From: a virus
Length of the DNA stretch: 23,438 nucleotides
Strand: one strand, 5' to 3'
Virus record (IMG/VR): IMGVR_UViG_3300045912_000377
Span: 1 to 23,438 of that record
Within the stretch, counting starts at the first letter, position 1. Each line of letters starts with the position of its first letter. The position numbers were made by a program, and so were the translations under genes. Under the pieces are notes generated by a model. It made no database searches, was not told where the DNA came from, and worked only from the letters and a program-made list of their open reading frames with translations. Shown here piece after piece: positions 1,849-23,438 of this stretch.

Positions 1849-3414
1849 TTACCCCCACAAGGTGAGCGTGGCCTCGCCGGCCACCGGGTCCAGCTGGAAC
1901 CCCAGCACCCGCATCAGTTTGCCGTCCTGCAGCCCGAAACGCGAGTACCGAAGCTCCACGACGGCGCCCAGCTGCACCTGCGCCAGCGCCGCCCCGGGAA
2001 GCCGCACCGTCACCTCGTACCGCTCCCGCTGCACCCCGTACAGGCCCAGCAGCCGGGCCGCCTCCGCCGCGCCGTCGGTGCGGCACGCCAGCAGCGTTTC
2101 CACCACCAGCTCCGGCGCCAGCAGGTGCTGCGCCTGCACTGCCGGGTCTTCCACCACCGCGTCCTGAAACGGCTGGGCCAGCCGGGCCCGCCGGGCCGCA
2201 CTCACGCTGCCGGCCAGCCCGTTGGTCTGCACCGTCCAGTTGGGCGCGCATCGCACCGTGACGCGGTACGCCGGCAGGCCGCCCCGGGACAGGGGCACGC
2301 GCCGCAACGCGCCGGACTTGATGCGGTCCCCGTCCAGCAGCAGCACCGGCGGGCCGGTGGGGGCGTCGAGGCGCTGGATGCGCAGCACCCCGTTCTCATC
2401 CGCCCCCCACCACGCCCCCACGCTCTGCGCCAGCAGGTCCAGCGCCTCCGCCACCGTCGTTTCCGCAGCCACGTACAGCCCCACCGTGGCCGGCTGCAGC
2501 TGGTCCAGCGCCGCCACGTCGGCCGCGCTGATATCGCCCGGGGCCAGCCCCGCCCGCTCCACCAGCAGGCGCTGAAAGACCTGCGCCGCAGTGCGGTCCT
2601 GCGGCCACAGGCCCTCCACCGCATCGCACGTGACCTGCCCCACCGGCGTGCTGCCCAGCCGGAAGAACCCGCCCCCTTTCCAGACCCGGAAGCTGCCGGC
2701 CGCCGGCTGCACGCTCTGCAGCTGCGTGGCGTCCGCGTAGTCCGGGCCACGGGACAGCAGGGCCCCGCTGTCATACACCGCCATCACGTCCCGCACCGGC
2801 CCGTCGTTCACCTGCCAGATCAGCCGGCTGGTGTTGACCAGCACGGGCGCGACGTTGAAGCACCAGCCGTAGAGCACCGGCTTGGGCTTGCCCTGCAGGT
2901 CGCTGGCAATGCCCTCCAGCCCGTTGGGCAGCACGTTCGTGCCGGCGAACTTCGTGGCCTGCAGCTGCCCGGTGGTGAACGTCTGCCGGTCCCGCAGGCG
3001 CACTCGCGCCTCCGCCAGCGTCAGCTCCGGTTGCTCCGCCACCGCTTCCAGCAGCAGCGTGTAGCCGCCCGGGAACTCCGCGGCCGGGGTATCCGCCACG
3101 TACAGCCGCACCGGCCGGCCGTCCACGCTCACACGGCCCAGCCAGTCCAGCCCCCCGTCATCATTCCGCAGCAGCAGCTCCCCGTAGCCCACCCGGCTGG
3201 CACCGCCGGTGGTGCCCACGTCAAACAGATCACGCCGCACCGTGGCGGGCGTGACCACCCGGGGCTCCACGGTGGTGTGCGGCGGCGTGCTGGTGCCGCT
3301 GGTGCTGAAGCCGGTGGAGGCCACCAGCAGCACGCGCTCCGCCGCCGCGTCCGGGTCGTAGTAGGTGATCGCCGCGACGTAGTTGCTGGCGCTGCGGGCG
3401 CTGGCGTAGCTCAC
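1849..3414 (-). CDS. Tail hub / tail-tip baseplate-like protein (521 aa)
   Basis: This gene starts with GTG at 3414 inside a GTGA overlap with the tape measure stop (3411-3413). The protein is 521 residues. Residues 60-145 form a beta-rich N-terminal part (VGYGELLLRNDDGGLDWLG). Residues 274-350 contain the helix-strand pattern seen in gp27-like tail hub domains: a VFQRLLVERAGL helix, TTVAEALDLLAQSVGAWWG, then ENGVLRIQRL. The last 80 residues return to beta structure and end in a Gly-Glu-Ala-Thr-Leu-Thr-Leu type strand, as in phage hub/Tal proteins. The position immediately after the tape measure is where siphophages encode the hub that contacts the tape measure tip. No peptidoglycan hydrolase motif is visible. 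Confidence 0.7.
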   Translation of the reverse strand: MSYASARSASNYVAAITYYDPDAAAERVLLVASTGFSTSGTSTPPHTTVEPRVVTPATVRRDLFDVGTTGGASRVGYGELLLRNDDGGLDWLGRVSVDGRPVRLYVADTPAAEFPGGYTLLLEAVAEQPELTLAEARVRLRDRQTFTTGQLQATKFAGTNVLPNGLEGIASDLQGKPKPVLYGWCFNVAPVLVNTSRLIWQVNDGPVRDVMAVYDSGALLSRGPDYADATQLQSVQPAAGSFRVWKGGGFFRLGSTPVGQVTCDAVEGLWPQDRTAAQVFQRLLVERAGLAPGDISAADVAALDQLQPATVGLYVAAETTVAEALDLLAQSVGAWWGADENGVLRIQRLDAPTGPPVLLLDGDRIKSGALRRVPLSRGGLPAYRVTVRCAPNWTVQTNGLAGSVSAARRARLAQPFQDAVVEDPAVQAQHLLAPELVVETLLACRTDGAAEAARLLGLYGVQRERYEVTVRLPGAALAQVQLGAVVELRYSRFGLQDGKLMRVLGFQLDPVAGEATLTLWG

Positions 3415-6400
3415 CGGCCGCTGATCCCGATGCCGACGCCACCGCCACCGCGGGCCGCGGACAGCTGGGCCCCGCTGCGCACCTCCACCGCCACCCGGTT
3501 CACCGCTTCCACCACGCGATACGTGGCGTCCACCTCCGCCTCGGTGCCCTTGGCCGCCACCAGCGTCAGCCGCTCCACCCGCTCCTGCAGCACGCCCAGC
3601 CGCTCCTGCAGCGTCCGGTTCACCTCCCGCAGCTCAGCCACCGTGGCCTGCAGTGCGTCCTGCAGCTGCGCCCCGGCCGTGGGCTGGCCGCCGGGCGTGC
3701 CGGGGGCCGCGCCGCCCGCGCCACCCTCCCCCGGCCGCTCCAGCTCCTGCAGCGCCCGCTGGTAATACTCGCCGGCGCCGGCCGCGTAGGTCTTGAACAG
3801 GTCGTAGAACTCGTTCTCGCGCAGGCGGGTGGCCAGCTTGGCGTTCTCGTCCGCGATCAGCTGCTCAATGGCCCGGTCGGCGCTCTCCCGGATGGCCTCC
3901 TTGGTCTCCTGCAGCTTGGCCACCGTGGCCTCAGCGTCCGCCGTGATGCGCGTGCGCTCCTCCTTCAGCGTGTCCACCAGCCGGCGGGCGTTCTCCTGCG
4001 CCTCCGCCTTGGCCTTCTCCAGCACCTCCACCTGCCGGTTGGCCGCCTCGGTAATGGCCTCCCGCTGCAGGTCCAGCGCCTTCAGGGCTTGCTGCTGGCC
4101 CTCCACGCTGCGCCGCAGCTGCTCCAGCTGCTGCTGGTCCACGGGCAGGGTGGCCGCGAACTGCTCGCGCACGGCCGCCACCACGTCCTGCACGCGGTTG
4201 AAGTCCTCGACGAACCCGCTGTTGCTGGCGTTGAAGGCGCGGCTGGCGGCCAACAGGGCGTTGGCGGCTTGCGGCAGCTGCTGCGCGGCGGCCGCGTCCC
4301 CACCCTGCGCGGCCTGCGCCAGCTGGTCGAACTGCCGGCGGGCCTCCGCCAGCTGGTCCTCCGGCGACAGTGGGCTGAAGGTGCCCAGCTGCAGGCTGTT
4401 GCTGAAATCGTCCAGCGCCGCCACCACCTGCGTGGACACCTGCACCGACTTCTCCAGCGCCTGCAGCTGCTGCTGGGACACCTGCAGCTGGTCCCGCGCC
4501 GCCCGCGTTTGCTCGTCCAGCGCCTTTAGGCGCAGCTTCGTCTCCTCCTTGATGGCACTGATTTGGGCGTCGAACCCCTTGACCTGCACGGCCAGCCCGG
4601 CCTGCACGGCTTCGATCTGGGCATTGATGGCGGCCACCTGCGCCGCCGCGGCGCTGCGCGTCACCTCGATCAGCAGCTCCGTGGCCTTCAGCTCATCGGC
4701 AGCCGCCGCGTTGATGGCCTTGGTCCCGTCCTCGATGGCGCGCTGCGTGGCCAGCGCCTCCCGCTCCGCGAACTGCACGAACTGCAGCAGCGCCACGTTC
4801 GTCTCGGTCATCCCGCTCCGCACGGCGTCCGCCAGCTCCTGCCGCTGCCGGCTGGCCAGCTGCGCGTCCTCCGCCGCCCGCCGCTCGCCGCTGGCGGCCA
4901 GCCCCCGCACCACCAGCCCCTCGCTGGTGCGCCGGTCCTGCTCCAGCCGCTCCGCCTCCCTTGCGGCCAGCAGCGCCGCGTTGTACAGCCGCAGCGCCGC
5001 CAGCTCAGCCTCGCTGGCGCCGCGGGCAATGGCGTCAAAGATGCGGTTGGCCGCGTCCTCCACGTCCCGCGCCCGCTCCGCACCCCGCGGGTCCGTGAAC
5101 GCCTGCGTGTCCAGCTCCAGCGCCCGCACCCGGCGGCGCTGGTCCTCCTGCGCCTGCGCGGCGGCCTTGGCCTCCTCCTCCGCCCGGCGCTGCTGGTCGG
5201 CCGCGAACTTCTGCCGCTCCGCCAGCTGGGCGGCGGCCAGCGCCGCCAGCGTCGTGGCGTCCGCGGACGCCTTGACGGCCGCGGCATACTCCCGCTGCTG
5301 CTGCTGCGCGAACTGCACGGCGTCGGCCTCCGCCGTGTTGCCCTGCGCCCGCAGCTCGCGCACCCGGAAGTCTTCCTGCAGCTGCCGCTGCTGCTGCGCG
5401 AACTCCGCCTCAGCCTGCCGGCGCAGCTCCGCCGCCGCGGCGTTGATTTCGCGCAGCTTCTCCACGTAGGGCGCCAAGTTCTTGGCGGCCGCCTGCAGCA
5501 GCCGGTTGCCGCTGGCGGCCAGCTGGTCGTAGACCTTGAGCACGCCCTCCGGGTCGCCGGTCACCTTGGTGCCCTTGGGCAGCACCGCCTTCGCCTGCTC
5601 CACCAGCGCCTTGCGCTGCTCCTCGATATCACGCAGGGCGGCCTTCAGCGGGGTGTCCGTGCCCGCCGCCTTGTCCACGAACGCCTGCAGGTTGGCCTCG
5701 AACGCCTCCCGCGCCTGCCGCATCTTCTCCGCCGCCTCCTTGGCCTTGGCGGCCGAACCCAACAGGCCGCCCACCAGCCCGGCCACACCGCCCACAATGG
5801 CGCCCACGGGCCCGGCCACCTGAGCGCCCATCAGGGCCCCGGTGGCCGCGCCACCCACGGCGCCCAGCGTCCGGTTGGTGGTCATGCTGCCGACGCCGTA
5901 GCCCACGGCCAGCCCACCCAGCGCGGCGCCGCCGTACTGCATGAGCGGGGTGGTGGTCATGCTGCCGATCCCGGGCAGGCCCGCACCGGGCGTCTGTGCG
6001 CCGGCCACGCCGGTGGGCAGGGCGGCGCCCAGCGCGGCGGTGAGGCGCTTGAAGACGTTGGCGGCCAAGATGTCCGCGAACACCTTCAGGAACAGGTCTT
6101 TCAGCGTCTGGGTGAAGTCGCGGAAGCCGTCCAGCCCGCTGCGCAGCACGCGCTCGATACCGCCGGACAGGGTGCGCTGAAACTGGTCTGCGAACGCCTG
6201 CGCCAGCCGCTCCTGCTCCTTGGCCGCCTTCTTGGCCGCCTGCGCCGCCTCCTTGGCCAGCTCCTTGCGCTTCTCCAGCTGGTCGTTGGTCTCAATCGCC
6301 TGCAGGGTCAGCCGCAGCTCCTCCGCCACCGCCGCCTCACGGTCCTCCAGCTCCTGCCCCGTCAGCGTGCGCCGCGCCTGCAGCACTGCGGCGGCGGCCT

Positions 6401-8258
6401 GCTGCTGCGCCCGCACCCGGGCCAGCTCCACACCCTCCAGCCCAGCCAGCTCCACAAGGTCCGCCGCCGCCCGGACCCGGTCCGCGTTGGCCTGCGCCAG
6501 CTCCCGGGCCCGGCGCTGCAGCACCGTGGACTCGGCCAGCCGCAGCTCCTCCGCCACCGCCGCCTCCGTCAGCGCCAGTAGCTCCCCCTGCAGCTCCCGG
6601 CGCGCCTCCGTCAAGTCGTTGACCGCCTTGTTGCGCACCACCTGCAGGTCCGCCTCGCGCCCGATCATCCCCTCCAGCTCCAGCGCCTGCTGGGCCAGCC
6701 GCACCCGGTCCGCTGCAGCGTCGCGCACCGCCTGCGCCTTCTTCACCCCCTCCTCGTCCACTGCCTTCACCGGCGTACCACTGGCCGCCGTCACCGGCGC
6801 CGGGACGTTGGCCAGCGCCTGCTGCGCCGCCAGCGTGCGCTCCAGCTCCGCGTTGTACTTGGCCTCGTCCTCCGCCAGCTTCTTCTGCACAGCGTTGTAG
6901 GCGACGTAGCCGGCGGCCAGCCCGCCCACGGCCGCCAGCACGCCGGCGATGCTGCCCTTGGCGGCGCTGAGCAGGGTGGCCGCCGTGGCCATGCTGCGCA
7001 GCGCCTTTACCACGTTGAGCAGGCCGGTGATGACCCCGCCGCTGGACATGACCGCTTGCGCCACGGCCACCAGCCGGGCCTGCACCGCGTAGGCGGCCGC
7101 AGCGGCGGCGGCACCGGCCAGTGCGGCGGCGACGACCGGCAGGTTGCTGGCGAGCAGCTGCATGCCCTGCACCAGCGTGGTCAGCACGACGTTGACGGCC
7201 GGCAGCGACTTGGTGCCGATCTCGATAAAGGCGGCCGACAGCTGGTTGCGCAGCTGCTGCGTCAGGGCGGCTGAGGTGGCGGTGGCCTTGTCGAAGGCGT
7301 CGGAGCTGGCGCCGCTGGCGTTGCGAATCTGGTCCAGCGCGTCCGCCGCCTTCACCCCGCCATCCGTCAGCAGGCTCAGCACCGCCGTCTTGCCGCGGAT
7401 GTCGGAAAAGAGGGCGTTGATGGCCTCCTCACTGTTGCCGCTGGCCTCCGCGAACTCTTTCAGGAAGTTGACGAACCCCACGGCCTTCAGCTTGGTGCTG
7501 TCGAACTCCTTGGCCAGCGCCGGGAACTGCTTCTTGAACTCCTCCGTGGGCTGGATGATGCTGACGATGGCCGACCGGATGCCGGTGATGCTCTCCGCGG
7601 TGTTGATGCCGCCGGCGGTGAGGCGGGCAGTGGCGGCCAGCACGTCTGCCAGATCGACGCCAAAGGCGGCGGCCACGGGGGCCGCCTTGCCGATGCTGGC
7701 GGCCAGCTCCCCGAACGTGGTCTTGCCCAGCTGGATGGCCTTGAAGAACTGGTCGCTGGCCACGTTCACGTCCAGCTGCGTGGTGGCGTAGGCGTTGACC
7801 ACGCTGGTGAGCGCGTCCACGGCCGTGGCCGTGTCCGTCACGCCGGCGATGGCGCTGCGGGCGGCCACGTTCAGGAACTCCATCGCCTTGCCGGCCGGCA
7901 CGCCGGCGCTGATGATGTCATACAGGCCCTTCGTCAGCTCCGCCGTGCTCTTGACCGGCAGGTCGCGGAACGTGTCCAGCACCTGCCGGCTGAACACCGT
8001 CATGCTGGCCGTGGCGTTGTCCGTGACTGTGCTGACCAGCGCAATCTGGGCCTCGAACGCCTGCGCGTCCGCCACCGCCTTGCGCAGCGCCGCACCGACG
8101 GCCACGAAGCTGGCCATGCGGCCCACCAGCGCGCCAAGGCTGCGCTCGGTGCCCTCCGCCCGCTGCCCCAGCTTGTTCAGCTCATCGGCCAGCTTCTGCG
8201 TGGCCACGACCGCCCCGGTGCTGTCCACCCGCAGGCCCAAGACCGCAATATCAGCCAT
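3411..8258 (-). CDS. Tape measure protein (1615 aa)
   Basis: This is the longest gene in the window and sets tail length. I chose the ATG at 8258 (MADIAVLGL), which has GGAGG just upstream; a GTG at 8273 in frame has no Shine-Dalgarno. Residues about 60-340 match the TP901-type tape measure core (QVLDTFRDLPVKSTAELTKG, ISAGVPAGKAMEFLNVAARS, FGELAASIGKAAPVAAAFGV). Hydrophobic stretches follow at about 372-402 and 435-456, and a glycine-rich hydrophobic stretch at 776-836. Residues 500-730 and 860-1540 are mostly alpha-helical coiled coil rich in A, E, Q and R. Using the usual 0.15 nm per residue, the tail would be about 240 nm long. The start overlaps the chaperone stop by 8 nt and the stop overlaps the hub start. 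No lytic transglycosylase or peptidase domain is evident. Confidence 0.95.
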   Translation of the reverse strand: MADIAVLGLRVDSTGAVVATQKLADELNKLGQRAEGTERSLGALVGRMASFVAVGAALRKAVADAQAFEAQIALVSTVTDNATASMTVFSRQVLDTFRDLPVKSTAELTKGLYDIISAGVPAGKAMEFLNVAARSAIAGVTDTATAVDALTSVVNAYATTQLDVNVASDQFFKAIQLGKTTFGELAASIGKAAPVAAAFGVDLADVLAATARLTAGGINTAESITGIRSAIVSIIQPTEEFKKQFPALAKEFDSTKLKAVGFVNFLKEFAEASGNSEEAINALFSDIRGKTAVLSLLTDGGVKAADALDQIRNASGASSDAFDKATATSAALTQQLRNQLSAAFIEIGTKSLPAVNVVLTTLVQGMQLLASNLPVVAAALAGAAAAAAAYAVQARLVAVAQAVMSSGGVITGLLNVVKALRSMATAATLLSAAKGSIAGVLAAVGGLAAGYVAYNAVQKKLAEDEAKYNAELERTLAAQQALANVPAPVTAASGTPVKAVDEEGVKKAQAVRDAAADRVRLAQQALELEGMIGREADLQVVRNKAVNDLTEARRELQGELLALTEAAVAEELRLAESTVLQRRARELAQANADRVRAAADLVELAGLEGVELARVRAQQQAAAAVLQARRTLTGQELEDREAAVAEELRLTLQAIETNDQLEKRKELAKEAAQAAKKAAKEQERLAQAFADQFQRTLSGGIERVLRSGLDGFRDFTQTLKDLFLKVFADILAANVFKRLTAALGAALPTGVAGAQTPGAGLPGIGSMTTTPLMQYGGAALGGLAVGYGVGSMTTNRTLGAVGGAATGALMGAQVAGPVGAIVGGVAGLVGGLLGSAAKAKEAAEKMRQAREAFEANLQAFVDKAAGTDTPLKAALRDIEEQRKALVEQAKAVLPKGTKVTGDPEGVLKVYDQLAASGNRLLQAAAKNLAPYVEKLREINAAAAELRRQAEAEFAQQQRQLQEDFRVRELRAQGNTAEADAVQFAQQQQREYAAAVKASADATTLAALAAAQLAERQKFAADQQRRAEEEAKAAAQAQEDQRRRVRALELDTQAFTDPRGAERARDVEDAANRIFDAIARGASEAELAALRLYNAALLAAREAERLEQDRRTSEGLVVRGLAASGERRAAEDAQLASRQRQELADAVRSGMTETNVALLQFVQFAEREALATQRAIEDGTKAINAAAADELKATELLIEVTRSAAAAQVAAINAQIEAVQAGLAVQVKGFDAQISAIKEETKLRLKALDEQTRAARDQLQVSQQQLQALEKSVQVSTQVVAALDDFSNSLQLGTFSPLSPEDQLAEARRQFDQLAQAAQGGDAAAAQQLPQAANALLAASRAFNASNSGFVEDFNRVQDVVAAVREQFAATLPVDQQQLEQLRRSVEGQQQALKALDLQREAITEAANRQVEVLEKAKAEAQENARRLVDTLKEERTRITADAEATVAKLQETKEAIRESADRAIEQLIADENAKLATRLRENEFYDLFKTYAAGAGEYYQRALQELERPGEGGAGGAAPGTPGGQPTAGAQLQDALQATVAELREVNRTLQERLGVLQERVERLTLVAAKGTEAEVDATYRVVEAVNRVAVEVRSGAQLSAARGGGGVGIGISGR

Positions 8259-8655
8259 CGTCCTCCGCTCCACGGTCTGGTGGTGGGTGCCGTCGTACCG
8301 CGTCCAGCATCAGCAGGGCCTGCACCTCATGCGGCCGTGGGCAGCGGTCCGTCAGCTCCGCCCATGCCCGCACCGTCGTGTAACTCAACGGGGCCAGCCC
8401 GTCCATCGTGGCACCGCTGCGCCCAAACAGCTCGTCCAGCCACTCCAGCAGGTACTGCAGCGCCGGCGGGACCGGCGGCCCCGCCAGCTCCGCCTCCCAC
8501 CGGGCCACCCGGGCCGCCCATTCTGGCACGTCCCGGTACCGCTTGACCATGCCCGCCACATGCTGCCGGGGCGTGGTGCCGTCCTTGCCCGGCGTATCCA
8601 TGCGCGCCTGCTGGGCCACGTGGGCCCGCAGGCGCAGCAGCTCCTCAGTCCAGAA
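8251..8655 (-). CDS. Tail assembly chaperone, downstream (T-like) part
   Basis: This frame resembles the second part of siphophage tail assembly chaperones: PALQYLLEWLDELFGRSGA, then APLSYTTVRAWAELTDR, ending just inside the tape measure start. The only conventional start nearby is a GTG at 8619 with no Shine-Dalgarno in range. The frame reads on sensibly upstream of it (FWTEELLRLRAHVAQQ) and overlaps the end of the upstream chaperone gene. It is in the +1 frame relative to that gene. I therefore think it is made as a frameshift extension of the upstream ORF, as lambda G-T is. The coordinates begin at the TTC codon where the shift would place the ribosome. The fusion product would be 295 residues. 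Confidence 0.75.
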   Translation of the reverse strand, partial: FWTEELLRLRAHVAQQARMDTPGKDGTTPRQHVAGMVKRYRDVPEWAARVARWEAELAGPPVPPALQYLLEWLDELFGRSGATMDGLAPLSYTTVRAWAELTDRCPRPHEVQALLMLDAVRRHPPPDRGAEDDG

Positions 8656-8660
8656 ATCGG
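8645..8660 (-). other. Candidate +1 programmed frameshift site in tail chaperone genes
   Basis: In the zero frame the upstream chaperone ends CGA TTT CTG GAC TGA. The downstream chaperone frame is open through this point and is offset by +1. If tRNA-Phe on UUU (8654-8656) slips one base forward it still pairs with UUC (8653-8655), and decoding continues UGG ACU GAG GAG into the downstream frame, giving ...ARF-WTEELL.... UUU-C resembles known +1 slippery contexts, and the UGA stop follows three codons later. A -2 shift would give the same frame; I see no homopolymeric tract that favours it. Confidence 0.5.
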
Positions 8661-9139
8661 GCCGGGTCCGCCTGCAGCTGCTCCGCGTCCCGACGGATCC
8701 ACGGCGCGGCCCGGAAGACCTCGGCGGCGTTGTGCGCCGTGAGCGGCATGGGCGTGCTGCCGTCCCGCAGGTTCCACTCCAGCACGCAGGCCGCCAGCTT
8801 CTCCAGCTCGTTGCGGTCCACCAGCTCCGCCGTCAGCTCCGTGGTGCGGCGCTTCAGCGTGCGGTCGTTGACCGCTTGCTCCGCCCTGCGGTAGGTGGTG
8901 CTGTGGCGGCCGGCGATGCGCATGTAGGCGGGCACCGCGTTGCCCTCCGCGTCCGCCGTGTACAACGGCTCCCCCTGCTCGTCCCGCAGGTACAGCACCG
9001 CCCCCCGGTCCTCCCGCTGCGCCACACTGCGGGCAGCGGACAGGCTGAACAGGCGGGGCCCGGCCGGCGTGACGGTATCCGGCGTGGTGGTGTCCGGCGT
9101 GGTGGTGTCCGGCGTGGTGTCCTTCGTCTTGGTGCTCAT
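8645..9139 (-). CDS. Tail assembly chaperone, upstream (G-like) part (164 aa)
   Basis: This gene encodes a 164-residue protein between the tail tube and tape measure genes, where lambda-type phages encode gpG. The ATG at 9139 has GGGAA about 8 nt upstream. Residues 4-22 are a low-complexity T/P/D repeat (KDTTPDTTTPDTTTP), followed by a beta segment (AVLYLRDEQGEPLYTADAEG) and helical segments rich in charged residues (TTELTAELVDRNELEKLAAC). It ends ADPARFLD. The family role is to coat the tape measure during tube polymerisation. The gene context and the overlapping +1 frame downstream support the call more than sequence motifs do. A 203-nt gap containing stem-loops precedes it. Confidence 0.75.
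   Translation of the reverse strand: MSTKTKDTTPDTTTPDTTTPDTVTPAGPRLFSLSAARSVAQREDRGAVLYLRDEQGEPLYTADAEGNAVPAYMRIAGRHSTTYRRAEQAVNDRTLKRRTTELTAELVDRNELEKLAACVLEWNLRDGSTPMPLTAHNAAEVFRAAPWIRRDAEQLQADPARFLD
9081..9122. repeat. Tandem 15-bp repeat inside the upstream tail chaperone gene
   Basis: Two perfect copies of GGCGTGGTGGTGTCC (plus-strand sense) at 9081-9095 and 9096-9110 are followed by a 12-bp shortened copy at 9111-9122. On the coding strand they give the repeated peptide PDTTT/PDTT near the protein N-terminus. Unit lengths are multiples of three, so copy number changes keep the frame. Confidence 0.85.
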
Positions 9140-9342: not shown

Positions 9343-10548
9343 TTACGGGGCGGCGCTGGTGCAGATGGTGAGCATGGTGGCATCAACCCCGGCCGCGGCC
9401 GTCTGCGCGCCGGTCTGGAACGGCAGCGATTCAATCATGGCGCCATCACCGCCCAGCGGGGCGTCCGCGCCGGTGTACTTGCACCGGGGCACGTAGAAGC
9501 TCAGGTAGGGCTTGGGCTCCGGCACGGGCTCCGTCAGCAGGATGTGCAGGGCAAACTCCGTCTCGTCCCGGAACGCCTGCACGCGGTCGAAGTCCTCGCG
9601 GATCATGGAGAAGCTGCCGGACATGGTGACGTCGTTGTCAAAGACGTCGGGGCTCACCTTGCTGCCCACCACCGGCTGCGTGGCGGCGTTGATGGTGTAG
9701 GTCAGCTCGAATGCGGTGGCCACGGTGATGTCCGTGCCGTTCAGCCCAATGCGGGCGTCCGCGAACACCAGTGGCACGCTGTTGTAGACGGTGGGGCTGG
9801 TGAAATACGGGCTGTCACCGCCCGTGGCCACCGTCATGCTGGCCCCCAGCGCCGTGAACTCCAGCTCCGCCATGCCGTCCGGCGTGCCGGTGATCTTGAG
9901 CCCAGTCCAGCGGACGCCACCGAACAGCTGGCTGCCGTCGATGTCCACGTTGCGCTGGTCGACGTAGAACGTGCGCTTCACCGGCGCCGCCGGGTTCGCC
10001 AGCTTCTTGCCGCGCACGATGGTGTAGGTGGTGTCAGCCACCGCGTTGGGCGTCAGCGTCTCGATGGTCTCGATGCGGGTGGCGGTGAGCGCCGCCACGC
10101 GGAGGTTGCGGTCGTTGTTGGCGGCCGTGCTGTGGCCGGACAGCCGGATGACATCACCCACCCGCAGGCCGGCGGCGATCCAGCTGCCGTTCGCGCCCAC
10201 GATGGCGTTGGCCTCGGTCGTGATTTCGTCCGGGGCCCCGCTCGTGGCCTCGGTGATCGTCAGGGGCGCCTGCCACGTGGCCCGCATCACCGCCTCATAC
10301 AGGGTGTCATGACTGCCCACGCTGGCCTCGGCCGTGTACGTCCCCGTCACCTGCTCGCTGCCATTTCGGCCCATCGTCTGCAGGGCGTCCGCACGCTGCT
10401 CGTTGGACCGGATGGTGGCCGACTGCAGCTGCAGGCCGGCGGAGGGCGTGAACCGCAGCACCTCCGCGCCGCCAGCCCCGGGCGGCGTGTTGAAGGCGCT
10501 TTCCTGCTTGAAAGCCACCGTGACGTTCTTTGCGCTCTGGAGTGACAT
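9343..10548 (-). CDS. Major tail (tube) protein (401 aa)
   Basis: This is the protein that polymerises into the tail tube. It starts MSLQSAKNVTVAFKQESAFN, a typical siphophage tube opening of the form KNVxVAFKxExxFNTPP. It continues with residues QRADALQTMGRNGSEQVTGT (51-70) and a beta-rich body (TFYVDQRNVDIDGSQLF, FELTYTINAATQPVVG). An inserted module at about 108-180 (GSWIAAGLRVGDVIRLSG) also occurs in the tail terminator gene next to it. The length is larger than simple lambda-type tubes (about 250), consistent with the insertion and a C-terminal extension. The start at 10548 has only a weak GAGCAG upstream. Its position between tail terminator and chaperones is canonical. Confidence 0.92.
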   Translation of the reverse strand: MSLQSAKNVTVAFKQESAFNTPPGAGGAEVLRFTPSAGLQLQSATIRSNEQRADALQTMGRNGSEQVTGTYTAEASVGSHDTLYEAVMRATWQAPLTITEATSGAPDEITTEANAIVGANGSWIAAGLRVGDVIRLSGHSTAANNDRNLRVAALTATRIETIETLTPNAVADTTYTIVRGKKLANPAAPVKRTFYVDQRNVDIDGSQLFGGVRWTGLKITGTPDGMAELEFTALGASMTVATGGDSPYFTSPTVYNSVPLVFADARIGLNGTDITVATAFELTYTINAATQPVVGSKVSPDVFDNDVTMSGSFSMIREDFDRVQAFRDETEFALHILLTEPVPEPKPYLSFYVPRCKYTGADAPLGGDGAMIESLPFQTGAQTAAAGVDATMLTICTSAAP

Positions 10549-12609: not shown

Positions 12610-13629
12610 CTACCCCCTCGCGGTGCTCGTTGCGGCCGTGGCGGCCGTCCTGCGGCGCGGCATGACCCCATTGCCGGCCAGCAGCGGGCCCGCCGCCGCC
12701 AGCACACTGCCCACCCGCGCCGGGTGGGGCTCCGCTTCCACCAGCACCGGCTCCGGCCACGCGGCCATGCCCAGCAGGCACGCCAGCGCCGTGCCGTCCG
12801 CCAGCTGCGTGGTGCTCCACTGCGAGGCGCCGGCACGCAGCAGCGCCGCCCGGCGCTCGCCGTAGGACAGTACCCGCGCCGGGGCGCCCAGCGGGCAGCC
12901 GTAGTCACGCCAGAACACCGCGGCGGGGTCCGCCGTGTAGTGCGCCGGCACGCCCGCGTCCACCGCCTCCAGCCCGGCCGTGCTGTTGTGCGTGACCAGC
13001 GCCGCGGCGCCGGCCAGCGCCTCCCGCAGCGGCTCCTCCGCCGGCAGGCTCACCCGCGCCACCCCGGGCGGCGCCGCCACGTCCAGCCCCCGCGGGTGCG
13101 GGCGCCAGCAGACGGGCAGGTCGTACTGCACCGCCACCAGCGCCGCCGCCTCCGCGGCCCAGCGGGCGCAGGCGGCCGCGTCCATGCCGTGGGCCGCGTC
13201 TCCCGGCCTCTGCCCGCACAGCAGCACGTACTCCGGGCGCCACCTGCGCAGCACCCCGCCCGCGTGCACGACGTTGCCCACGCGCAGCGGCAGGTCCGCC
13301 AGCCCGCCGGCGTACAGGCCCCAGAGCGTGCCGTAGTCCTGCCCGTCCGGCCCGCAGGCGGCACCGCGCAGGCGCGGCAGCTCCAGCACGTACACCGGCA
13401 CCCCGGCGGCCCGGTACGCCGCCGTCACCTCTGGCGCCCGCCCTTTCCAGCCGTCCAGCACCACCAGCGCCGCGTCCAGCACGCGGTCCGCCTCCACCCA
13501 CCGGTCCGTCGGCCGCAGGGCGGAACAGCGGAGCCCGAGGGTGGCGGCGCCATGGTGCAGCGCCGCCAGCCCCGGGCGTTGTTCCGGGCGGCCGTACAGG
13601 ACCACCCGCCCCTTTCCGCCGCTCAGCAT
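12610..13629 (-). CDS. Glycosyltransferase-like protein in the head module (339 aa)
   Basis: The first start after the capsid stop in this frame is the ATG at 13629 (MLSGGKGRVVLYGR), with GAGG about 11 nt upstream. The C-terminal half carries motifs of GT-B fold transferases of the capsule/KDO-type superfamily: VLLCGQRPGD at about 135-144, CWRPHP at 174-179, and LVTHNSTAGLEAVDAGVPA at 211-229, in which a donor-binding NST...GLEA..GVP loop is typical. The N-terminal half alternates strands and helices (VVLYGRPE, AALVVLDGWKG, VPVYVLELP) as expected of a Rossmann-like half. The substrate is unknown. Its place between capsid and adaptor genes suggests glycosylation of virion protein, or a cargo gene. 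The last 20 residues are basic and low complexity. Confidence 0.65.
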   Translation of the reverse strand: MLSGGKGRVVLYGRPEQRPGLAALHHGAATLGLRCSALRPTDRWVEADRVLDAALVVLDGWKGRAPEVTAAYRAAGVPVYVLELPRLRGAACGPDGQDYGTLWGLYAGGLADLPLRVGNVVHAGGVLRRWRPEYVLLCGQRPGDAAHGMDAAACARWAAEAAALVAVQYDLPVCWRPHPRGLDVAAPPGVARVSLPAEEPLREALAGAAALVTHNSTAGLEAVDAGVPAHYTADPAAVFWRDYGCPLGAPARVLSYGERRAALLRAGASQWSTTQLADGTALACLLGMAAWPEPVLVEAEPHPARVGSVLAAAGPLLAGNGVMPRRRTAATAATSTARG

Positions 13630-13648
13630 GGCGTGCCCATGCCTCGCC

Positions 13649-14785
13649 TCAGTTGCTGCGCAGGCGGACGCCGGCCAGCAGCCGGTCGTCATACGCGACC
13701 TTATCCCAGTTGGTGGTCGTGCCGAGCGCCGCGTCCGCCGGGTTGATGCCACCGTTGGCGGTGTCCCACTTGAACCCCCGGACCGTGATGTTGTAGGCGT
13801 ACTCGCTCTGGAAGATGCGGTACAGGTTCTCGGCGCCGCCCACGATGTCCGTGTAGAACGTCTCGTCCTCCGACTCCTCCACGACCACGGCGTTGGCGGT
13901 GAGCCCCAGCGTGTTGTACGTGTCCGTGGCGCTCCCGTTCAGGTCCACCAGCGCCGGGCTGTCCGAGACCACCACGGGGCGGCCAAGGTAGGCGGGCACG
14001 GCCCCCTGAATGGTCACGATGTCGGTGAGCCCCGTGACGTTCTGTGCCATGAGGGCGCCGATGATGTCGAAATGCGGCTTGCTGTGGGCCACCCAGCAGA
14101 CCACGTCCTGCGAGGCATCGCCGAACTTCGCCAGCGCGCTGCGCAGGCCGCTGGTGGTGGCGGTGCCGGGGTTGTCGCCGGTGATGTCCGACGTGAGGGT
14201 GTTACCCTGCCCGGCAATGGCCGTCTCGACGGCCAGCAGGGCGGTGTTCAGCATGTCCTTCATCTTGCGCTCGCCGGCCATCTGCCCGAACACGCGGCTG
14301 GCGTCCGCCTCCGTGAGGCCGGCCTTCTTCAGCGCGTCCAGCGTCTGCGCCACCGGGCCGATCTTCCGGTTGAGCTTGACGCTGATGACCTCGTCCTGCG
14401 TCATGGGCAGCACGGCGGCGGCGGACGTGCTGGTGATGTCGCGGCGGGTCACCAAGTTCGCCACGTCCTTGAAGAATGCCGCCTTGCTGTAATGCCCTTT
14501 CAGGGCGCGCGGGACCATGCGGATGGCGCCGCGGGACTGCTCGTTGAAAGCGGCCAAGAACTGCGTGACGCGCTCCACCAGCCCGGTCTGGAACTCCTCC
14601 TGATAGATGACCATGTCACTGGCCTTGCCGATGGCGCCAATGAACAGCAGGCCGGTGAGGGCGTCCGGGCTGTCGAGGAGGGACGGGGTGAGGGCCGCGC
14701 CGGCCGTGCCGGGGGCCAGCAGGGCGAGGACGGCAACGGCCGCGAACGCGCCCCAGCTTGCGAGGGTAAAGAGGGTCTTGGGCAT
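13649..14785 (-). CDS. Major capsid protein (378 aa as called)
   Basis: This gene follows the scaffold. The region from MVIYQEEFQTGLVERVTQFL onward fits an HK97-fold capsid protein, with VTRRDITSTSAAAV, KLNRKIGPVAQTLDAL, VVCWVAHSKPHFDIIG, LGRPVVVSDSPALV and a C-terminal GVRLRSN. Upstream of that core, the open frame adds MPKTLFTLASWGAFAAVAVL followed by ALLAPGTAGA, a textbook signal-peptide pattern with an AGA cleavage-like site at residues 28-30. Codon use there is coding-like (G/C at third positions). The start is uncertain. The ATG at 14785 has a weak Shine-Dalgarno. The ATG at 14911 has AGGAGG 11 nt upstream and would add 42 residues. The ATG at 14614 has AAGG 8 nt upstream and would remove the hydrophobic leader. 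Confidence 0.85.
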   Translation of the reverse strand: MPKTLFTLASWGAFAAVAVLALLAPGTAGAALTPSLLDSPDALTGLLFIGAIGKASDMVIYQEEFQTGLVERVTQFLAAFNEQSRGAIRMVPRALKGHYSKAAFFKDVANLVTRRDITSTSAAAVLPMTQDEVISVKLNRKIGPVAQTLDALKKAGLTEADASRVFGQMAGERKMKDMLNTALLAVETAIAGQGNTLTSDITGDNPGTATTSGLRSALAKFGDASQDVVCWVAHSKPHFDIIGALMAQNVTGLTDIVTIQGAVPAYLGRPVVVSDSPALVDLNGSATDTYNTLGLTANAVVVEESEDETFYTDIVGGAENLYRIFQSEYAYNITVRGFKWDTANGGINPADAALGTTTNWDKVAYDDRLLAGVRLRSN

Positions 14786-22224: not shown

Positions 22225-22818
22225 TCAGCGGCCGGCCGTGGGCCAGCTGGCGGCCACCAGCTGCAGCAGCTCCGCCCGGGCGGCGGCGTTGGCCCGGAAG
22301 GTGCCGCCCAGCGCGCTGCTGGTCATCAGCGCCGGGGTGCGCACCCCCCGCATGGTCATGCACAGGTGCTCGCCACGGGCCACCACCCCCACGTCTTCCG
22401 TGCCCGTAACGCGCACCACGTGGCTGCGGATGTCCTGCACCAGCCGCTCCTGCACCTGCAGCTTGGCCGCGTGGTGGTGGGCGATGCGGGCGAACTTGGA
22501 CAGCCCCAGCACGCGCTCCGTGGCCACGTAGCCCACGGCCACGTCACAGTAGAACGGCAGCAGGTGGTGCTCGCACAGCGACCAGACGCGCATGCCGGTC
22601 ACCAGCACCAGCTGGTCCGTCACCTGCGCCGTGACCTCGGCGCCGAACGTGGTGTCCATGCGGGCCGCGCCGGCGGCCGGCTGCAGCCGCTCCATCCACC
22701 AGCTGGCCCAGCGCCGGGGCGTGTCCGCCAGCCCCGGCCGCTCCGGCTCCGGGTCCACCAGCGTCAGCAGCTCCCGGCACAGCACCTGTAGCCGGGCCTC
22801 CCGCTCCGCGGGCGTCAT
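22225..22818 (-). CDS. folE: GTP cyclohydrolase I (197 aa)
   Basis: Converts GTP to 7,8-dihydroneopterin triphosphate, the first step towards folate, biopterin and 7-deazaguanines. I chose the ATG at 22818, which forms ATGA with the queE stop; a GTG at 22839 would add seven residues. The fold signature is complete: SLCEHHLLPF with C82 and H85, and HLCMTMRG with C153. The C82/H85/C153 spacing is the same as E. coli FolE zinc ligands C110/H113/C181. GLSKFARI and the VRTPALMTSSALGG tail are also typical. In a phage and next to queE it more likely feeds preQ0/7-deazaguanine synthesis than folate synthesis. Confidence 0.95.
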   Translation of the reverse strand: MTPAEREARLQVLCRELLTLVDPEPERPGLADTPRRWASWWMERLQPAAGAARMDTTFGAEVTAQVTDQLVLVTGMRVWSLCEHHLLPFYCDVAVGYVATERVLGLSKFARIAHHHAAKLQVQERLVQDIRSHVVRVTGTEDVGVVARGEHLCMTMRGVRTPALMTSSALGGTFRANAAARAELLQLVAASWPTAGR

Positions 22819-23438
22819 ACGCCCACCACCGTGCCCCACGCCAGCACGTGCAGCTGCGGCAGCACGCGCACCATCGGCAGGTCCTCGGCCACCTGCGCCG
22901 CCAAAGGGGCGTAGGCGTCCAGCACCCGGCGTCGCACCACCGCCACGTCCTCCGTCGGTGCCATGGGCGGCGTGCCCACGCTCACATACAGGTGCCGCAC
23001 GCCGGCGCCGTGGGCGGCCAGCAGCATGGCGCGGGCGTAGGCGTAGTCGTCGGCGTCAAAGACCACGACCTTCACGCTGGTGAACGCCGGCCCGGCGTCA
23101 ATGGCCGCCAGCATCTGCTCCGTGGGCGTGGTGTGGCCACTGCTGGGCGGCTTCGGGCTCAGCGTCAGGTGGTCCAGCGTGGACAGCCATGCGGGGGCCA
23201 CACTGCCCTGCGTCTCCAGCGCCACGCGCCAGCCGTCCCGGTGCAGCAGGGCGACCAGCGGGCCGCACGGCTGCAGGACCGGATTGCCGCCGGAGAGGGT
23301 GACCCACGGCTGCACGTCGGCCGGCCAGCCCGGGCGCGCCGGCAGCTGGGCGCGCAGCACCCCCGCCACCTCCGCCGGCGTCATGCGGGCCCAGCCGAGC
23401 CGGTAGCTGGGCAGCACCGCGTGCAGGCTGTCGCACCA
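22815..23438 (-). CDS. queE: 7-carboxy-7-deazaguanine synthase, N-terminus beyond window
   Basis: A radical SAM enzyme converting 6-carboxytetrahydropterin to 7-carboxy-7-deazaguanine, the precursor of preQ0. The gene enters from the right edge. The first visible residues are WCDS, the last cysteine of the CxxxCxxC cluster in its usual WCDS/T context, so only about 30-40 N-terminal residues are missing. A GTG at 23417 is internal, not the start. QueE hallmarks are VTLSGGNPVLQP (GGNP replacing the usual GGEP), ALETQGS, and LSPKPPSSG. The C-terminal part (MVRVLPQLHVLAWG) also fits. It is translationally coupled to folE by ATGA. queD, queC and any transferase would lie outside the window. Confidence 0.93.
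   Translation of the reverse strand, partial: WCDSLHAVLPSYRLGWARMTPAEVAGVLRAQLPARPGWPADVQPWVTLSGGNPVLQPCGPLVALLHRDGWRVALETQGSVAPAWLSTLDHLTLSPKPPSSGHTTPTEQMLAAIDAGPAFTSVKVVVFDADDYAYARAMLLAAHGAGVRHLYVSVGTPPMAPTEDVAVVRRRVLDAYAPLAAQVAEDLPMVRVLPQLHVLAWGTVVGV

Follow-up and report, generated by a model that had tools for sequence, protein, structure and literature searches.

How does a tailed phage translate the second of two overlapping open reading frames when its frame is displaced by one base from that of the first? The question is raised by a locus in a single IMG/VR virus record of 23,438 bases (the window, by which we mean the whole stretch of DNA that was analysed). In this phage, which has a GC content of 72.6%, the structural genes are carried on the minus strand in the order tail tube, ORF1, ORF2, tape measure (Table 1). 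A sequence-only reading had proposed that the two frames are joined by a +1 shift at UUU-C; both the offset and the predicted 295-residue product were reproduced here, and the same offset was found in three relatives. On comparative grounds we consider it very probable that ORF1 and ORF2 encode a siphophage tail assembly chaperone of the G/GT type, expressed through programmed +1 frameshifting.

Two frames of a putative tail assembly chaperone

Both parts match known chaperone families (ORF1 phrog_313, ORF2 PF23812), and the pair also has the position of a G/GT pair, with a PF18906 tube gene upstream and, downstream, a tape measure gene whose ATG at 8258 overlaps the end of ORF2. By homology and gene order, ORF1 would be the counterpart of lambda gpG and ORF2 that of lambda T. 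The N-terminus of ORF1 contains a TPDTTTPDTTTPDTVTP repeat (9070-9130, minus strand) that is missing from L012, one of the relatives described below. No isolate phage matched the window in a nucleotide search, and scans of bacterial genomes with the tube protein and the chaperone of a second phage group (see below) as queries found no prophage relatives.

Table 1 Features of the chaperone locus, with corresponding sites in relatives (positions of related loci follow the locus handle)
Feature	Position	Strand	Details
ORF1, putative tail assembly chaperone, zero frame	8645..9139	-	164 aa, ATG 9139 to TGA 8645; phrog_313 'Tail assembly chaperone' E=2.8e-6; gene sits between tail tube and tape measure
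ORF2, putative chaperone extension, +1 frame	8251..8652	-	133 aa past the junction; stop 8253-8251; PF23812 Phage_TAC_18 E=3.3e-8, exceeding the curated cut-off; phrog_20700 2.8e-7
Tape measure gene	3411..8258	-	phrog_991 1.6e-44; PF10145 1.3e-27
Tail tube protein gene	9343..10548	-	PF18906 Phage_tube_2 2.5e-24; source of the tree
Candidate shift site CGA_UUU_C	8653..8659	-	CGA 8659-8657; slip codon UUU 8656-8654; skipped C 8653
First +1 codons	TGG 8652-8650, then ACT, GAG	-	
Zero-frame stop UGA	8645..8647	-	three codons past UUU; same position in 4/4 clade members
Unannotated candidate UUU_CGA, CGC, CAA or CGU sites	L020 4793; L024 4751; L035-L052, L057, L058, L061, L062, L071		P26059A, DC31 and metagenomic relatives

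Three observations concern other minus-strand genes of the window. A GTP cyclohydrolase I gene (PF01227, 1.8e-47; 22225-22839) lies beside an ORF that appears QueE-like by eye, with no Pfam hit (22815-23417), a pair that possibly serves 7-deazaguanine DNA modification. The Mu F-like head morphogenesis protein (PF04233; 16494-18434) has a PKPAPKPAPKP linker and, in its C-terminal stretch, a zinc-protease-like HELIH motif. Amid the head-tail genes, a 380-aa ORF (12610-13752) gave a weak, below-cut-off match to the putative glycosyltransferase DUF6716.

At its 3′ end ORF1 reads GAC CCG GCC CGA TTT CTG GAC TGA on the minus strand, and the ORF2 frame lies one base on (CGA TTT C TGG ACT GAG GAG CTG). 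When TTTC is taken as a single Phe step, the result is a fusion of exactly 295 residues (...DPARF-WTEELL...). An in-frame CGA TTT pair occurs only once across the predicted genes of the window, at this site. The tandem X_XXY_YYZ arrangement of -1 sites is absent, with ORF2 in the +1 frame and A_UUU_CUG providing no tandem -1 site. Transcriptional slippage was considered separately and rejected, since runs of three Ts (window, L012) or five Ts (L013, L015) are too short for it.

Searches with the tail tube protein identified L012 (77% identity), L013 (70%) and later L015 (72%), which together with the window form a clade that is a small sample (n=4). Their fused proteins are 45-51% identical, and the +1 offset recurs at this position in all three relatives. 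Since the window and its clade relatives are metagenomic, one might suspect that the offset is an error of sequencing or assembly, or that the site has decayed in a relic without function. The window sequence is not the error of a single assembly, because a second contig (IMGVR_UViG_3300044961_000308; loci L003, L005, L011), 99.9% identical with 12 substitutions and 0 gaps over 8,492 bases, has an identical junction and three diverged genomes share the offset. Both ORFs are moreover conserved on either side of the junction, and isolate genomes of the second group have the same kind of site, making either explanation scarcely conceivable.

The motif CGA TTT YTG G is found in 4/4 members of the clade. 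Conservation of TTTC itself, the point of comparison named in the sequence-only reading, held only in part: UUU-Y is kept throughout, but the fourth base is C in two genomes and T in two (TTTT in L013 and L015), and the conserved unit is therefore CGA TTT Y TGG. The zero-frame UGA noted soon after the slip codon was confirmed as the third codon past TTT, where a stop stands in every member (TGA, TAA, TGA, TGA). In the four loci, the share of CGA among Arg codons is 4, 10, 10 and 8%, and that of TTT among Phe codons is 14, 18, 62 and 53% (14% in the window). As independent draws, the chance of CGA TTT in all four is ~3e-7, a rough figure for genomes that share ancestry. Among residues other than Met and Trp that are invariant in all four, an identical codon is used at 8/68 in the chaperone gene and 34/213 in the tube gene. 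Because synonymous sites elsewhere in the chaperone gene are thus nearly saturated (8/68), retention of CGA and TTT is not explained by drift. Nor does double coding account for the A of CGA or the last T of TTT, since shifting ribosomes read both in the zero frame. At the protein level, the alignment is continuous across the junction, with F162 invariant in six distant fusions and PARFW invariant in three clade members.

Position and possible mechanism of the shift

In L012, L013 and L015 the +1 frame contains a stop six codons before TTT; with the zero-frame stop three codons past TTT, the shift must therefore lie within nine codons in these genomes. When all codons of the allowed stretch were listed, UUU was the sole codon that could re-pair in the +1 direction in every genome, in agreement with the earlier suggestion that tRNA-Phe re-pairs from UUU to UUC; among L012, L013 and L015, only L013 offers a second candidate, CCC_G. 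UUU_Y is present in 29/29 +1 loci, which comprise 14 distinct junctions from both the window clade and the second group.

A -2 shift, as in the G-T pair of phage Mu, would enter the same frame and add one residue (ARF-F-W). In Mu a -2 shift occurs naturally in the homologous gene pair (PMC3498833), and many of the relatives that use -1 have FF at the junction position. However, within the stretch where the shift is allowed, neither the window nor L012 has a codon that could re-pair at -2, and the same holds for every second-group junction except those of L062 and L071; we regard a -2 shift as highly improbable.

Independent translation of ORF2 would remove the need for a shift. The first conventional start of ORF2 is GTG 8619, and the sole Shine-Dalgarno-like sequence, GAGGAG, lies 21 bases ahead of it, too distant to serve it, in line with the remark in the sequence-only reading that the nearby start lacks a Shine-Dalgarno. 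Ribosomes that terminate at the UGA could instead re-initiate past it, for example at GTG 8619 or at an in-frame CTG that stands nine bases behind GAGGAG in the window, the stop and this site being near enough for coupling. L012, L013 and L015, however, lack GAGGAG. In L013 no ATG, GTG or TTG occurs for 51 codons past the junction, the first being at codon 52, which makes separate initiation of ORF2 at a usual start impossible in that genome, and in the second-group isolate DC31 there is no start before codon 90. The relatives thus do not show the independent ORF2 start that would have spoken against the frameshift; the three in the clade keep both the offset and UUU-Y. Re-initiation would also leave unexplained the conservation of CGA TTT and of the residues between the junction and the start, and it appears very unlikely.

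We infer the occurrence of the +1 shift and its efficiency from these comparisons: most ribosomes would translate ORF1 and terminate at UGA 8645, and those that shifted would read UGG next and produce the fusion. Movement of peptidyl-tRNA-Phe from UUU to UUY would best explain such a shift. For PA-X of influenza A, a UUU to UUC shift has been argued from mass spectrometry, UUC being a better pairing partner for tRNA-Phe than UUU (PMC3498833). In the lambda model, many G and few GT copies are placed on the tape measure and T recruits tube protein (PMC5009743); by analogy, the presumed chaperone function of the short product would be to coat the tape measure protein, with the extra domain of the fusion recruiting the tail tube protein.

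A possible role for CGA is suggested by its position directly before UUU. Because this rare codon is strictly conserved there, it may act either as a weak E-site pair or from the P site in a Ty3-like event; both modes would give the same protein. Weak E-site pairing has been reported to favour +1 shifting (PMC3498833, PMC5009743). In the Ty3-like alternative, CGA in the P site (a weak I:A wobble) would let the incoming Phe-tRNA bind in the shifted frame at UUY; the first U would be passed over with no re-pairing of the peptidyl-tRNA, and the ARF-W junction would be identical. The strict retention of a codon that makes up 4-10% of Arg codons is consistent with this, as is the fact that in Ty3 few P-site codons, CGA being one of them, can replace GCG (PMC5009743). 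However, the second +1 group has AAC or AAU rather than CGA before the same UUU, the -1 relatives pivot on that UUU as well, and CGA could act instead as a weak E-site codon. We therefore consider the Ty3-like event unlikely, and slippage of tRNA-Phe from UUU to UUY the better account.

No further stimulatory element was apparent. Folds of the 81 bases after the slip codon gave z = -1.75, -2.53, -0.05 and +0.38 in the four genomes, with no shared 3′ stimulatory RNA, and upstream folds were ordinary, with no conserved upstream Shine-Dalgarno in the four genomes. Most known +1 sites have a rare codon or a stop in the A site, whereas the window has CUG, its most frequent codon for Leu (82%).

Relatives and the direction of the shift

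The statement in the sequence-only reading that most siphophages use a -1 shift was borne out among relatives, where the same two domains are joined by -1 in distant isolates and in nearest neighbours. Distant isolates with a -1 join include Roseobacter CRP-6, Klebsiella VLCpiS6a, Pseudomonas PSA28 and Acinetobacter JeffCo, and further examples are Bradyrhizobium ppBdUSDA122-1, Stenotrophomonas QDWS359, Pseudomonas PaMx74 and Synechococcus Ssp-JY42, among others. The nearest neighbours of the window clade by tube protein (L075-L084 and L087, 34-66% identity) are all -1, and most have U_UUU_UUC or U_UUU_UUG at the same residue (GGT TTT TTC in L078, AGT TTT TTG in L075). Compared with these neighbours, the window clade has A (of CGA) in place of the U before UUU, which abolishes the -1 heptamer, and its ORF2 lies two bases further on; the zero-frame stop, three codons past the slip codon, is also nearer. 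FFQERVAQL of L078 and FWHEQLAQL of L013 nevertheless align without a gap. In the window clade, CGA_UUU_YUG would have taken the place of the U_UUU_UUY of the relatives, and a net spacing difference of two bases would have put ORF2 in the +1 frame.

A second, separate +1 group includes two isolates. In Curvibacter phage P26059A the junction region reads GTA ACT AAC TTT CGA CCC AAA TGA, and in Limnohabitans phage DC31 it reads CTG AAC TTT CGA TCC GAG TGA. In DC31 the +1 frame carries a stop two codons ahead of TTC, and residues 9-253 of the fusion align end to end with positions 18-251 of the 258-aa phrog_313 chaperone profile (5.9e-19). The isolate records of both phages list the two pieces as hypothetical proteins and give no join. 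A scan for relatives returned 37 loci, 23 of which are +1 with UUU_CGA, UUU_CGC, UUU_CAA or UUU_CGU; the motif of the group is mostly UUU_CGN, preceded by AAC or AAU and not by CGA. Close to P26059A (L020), the loci L053-L056 and L063 use -1 at the same codon, for example A_AAU_UUU, and on this comparison the difference is a recent switch of direction.

In a maximum-likelihood tree of tail tube proteins (43 rows), the window and its three relatives group together (100/99) and are nested within -1 phages. Support for this nesting next to L075 and L076 is high (99/99); deeper in the tree, placement is unsure owing to the long branches of distant rows. The direction label changes at least 4 times on the tree, compared with a shuffled mean of 14.7. 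The fusion and the UUU codon are therefore retained through changes of direction.

Relation to known frameshift systems

The locus resembles the lambda gpG/gpGT -1 family in its order of tube, G, T and tape measure, in the overlap of ORFs immediately ahead of the tape measure gene and in the two products per start (PMC5009743), but would shift +1 at CGA_UUU_Y rather than -1 at a tandem heptamer. Among eukaryotic RNA viruses, +1 sites of the form UUU_C have been described (PMC3498833), namely the PA-X type of influenza A, fijiviruses, chronic bee paralysis virus and amalgaviruses. The phage sites share with this type a P-site UUU able to re-pair with UUC and no evident 3′ stimulator. UUU is common to all 14 distinct junctions, although it is followed by U in L013 and L015. 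The UUU_CGN of the second group is a further likeness; the slow or rare A-site CGN of PA-X is found in that group only, the window clade having CUG or UUG. The window clade differs from PA-X also in that CGA precedes UUU and the fourth base may be U, and the setting is a bacterial ribosome and a tail chaperone gene.

Shifting in the +1 direction in phage chaperone genes is itself already known or predicted. The chaperone frameshift of HSTV-2 is likely +1 (PMC5009743), and the SEA-PHAGES training set of PRFect contains 350 forward candidate chaperone sites (PMC10885494). These sites and CCC_UGA in Listeria PSA tsh are likewise +1 in phage tail genes (PMC5009743, PMC10885494); Listeria PSA differs in that the tail tube gene is extended and a Pro codon adjoins the stop. 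The PRFect forward rule calls for a +1 A-site codon more frequent than its zero-frame counterpart, and UGG against CUG in the window does not satisfy it. In the literature searched we found no report of UUU_Y in tail chaperone genes, with the proviso that the full PRFect forward list may contain UUU sites. Nor did we find in it a report of CGA before UUU_Y in these genes, or of a single codon at which the direction has switched repeatedly.

Taken together, these comparisons lead us to a tentative model, which we regard as quite possible, in which the junction has flipped repeatedly between -1 and +1 with UUU and the protein junction fixed. The +1 state would be the bacterial equivalent of the UUU_Y class to which PA-X belongs, and the window clade a new sub-type in which a rare E-site CGA stimulates shifting. 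Predictors that seek -1 heptamers, or +1 sites with a rare codon or stop next, would miss the site in the window. The matched -1 and +1 versions of one junction, with the same UUU codon, constitute a repeated natural experiment on reading-frame maintenance. They suggest that what selection maintains is the fusion, whichever way the ribosome slips, and that bacterial ribosomes probably also make use of UUU_Y +1 sites, a type described from eukaryotic RNA viruses.
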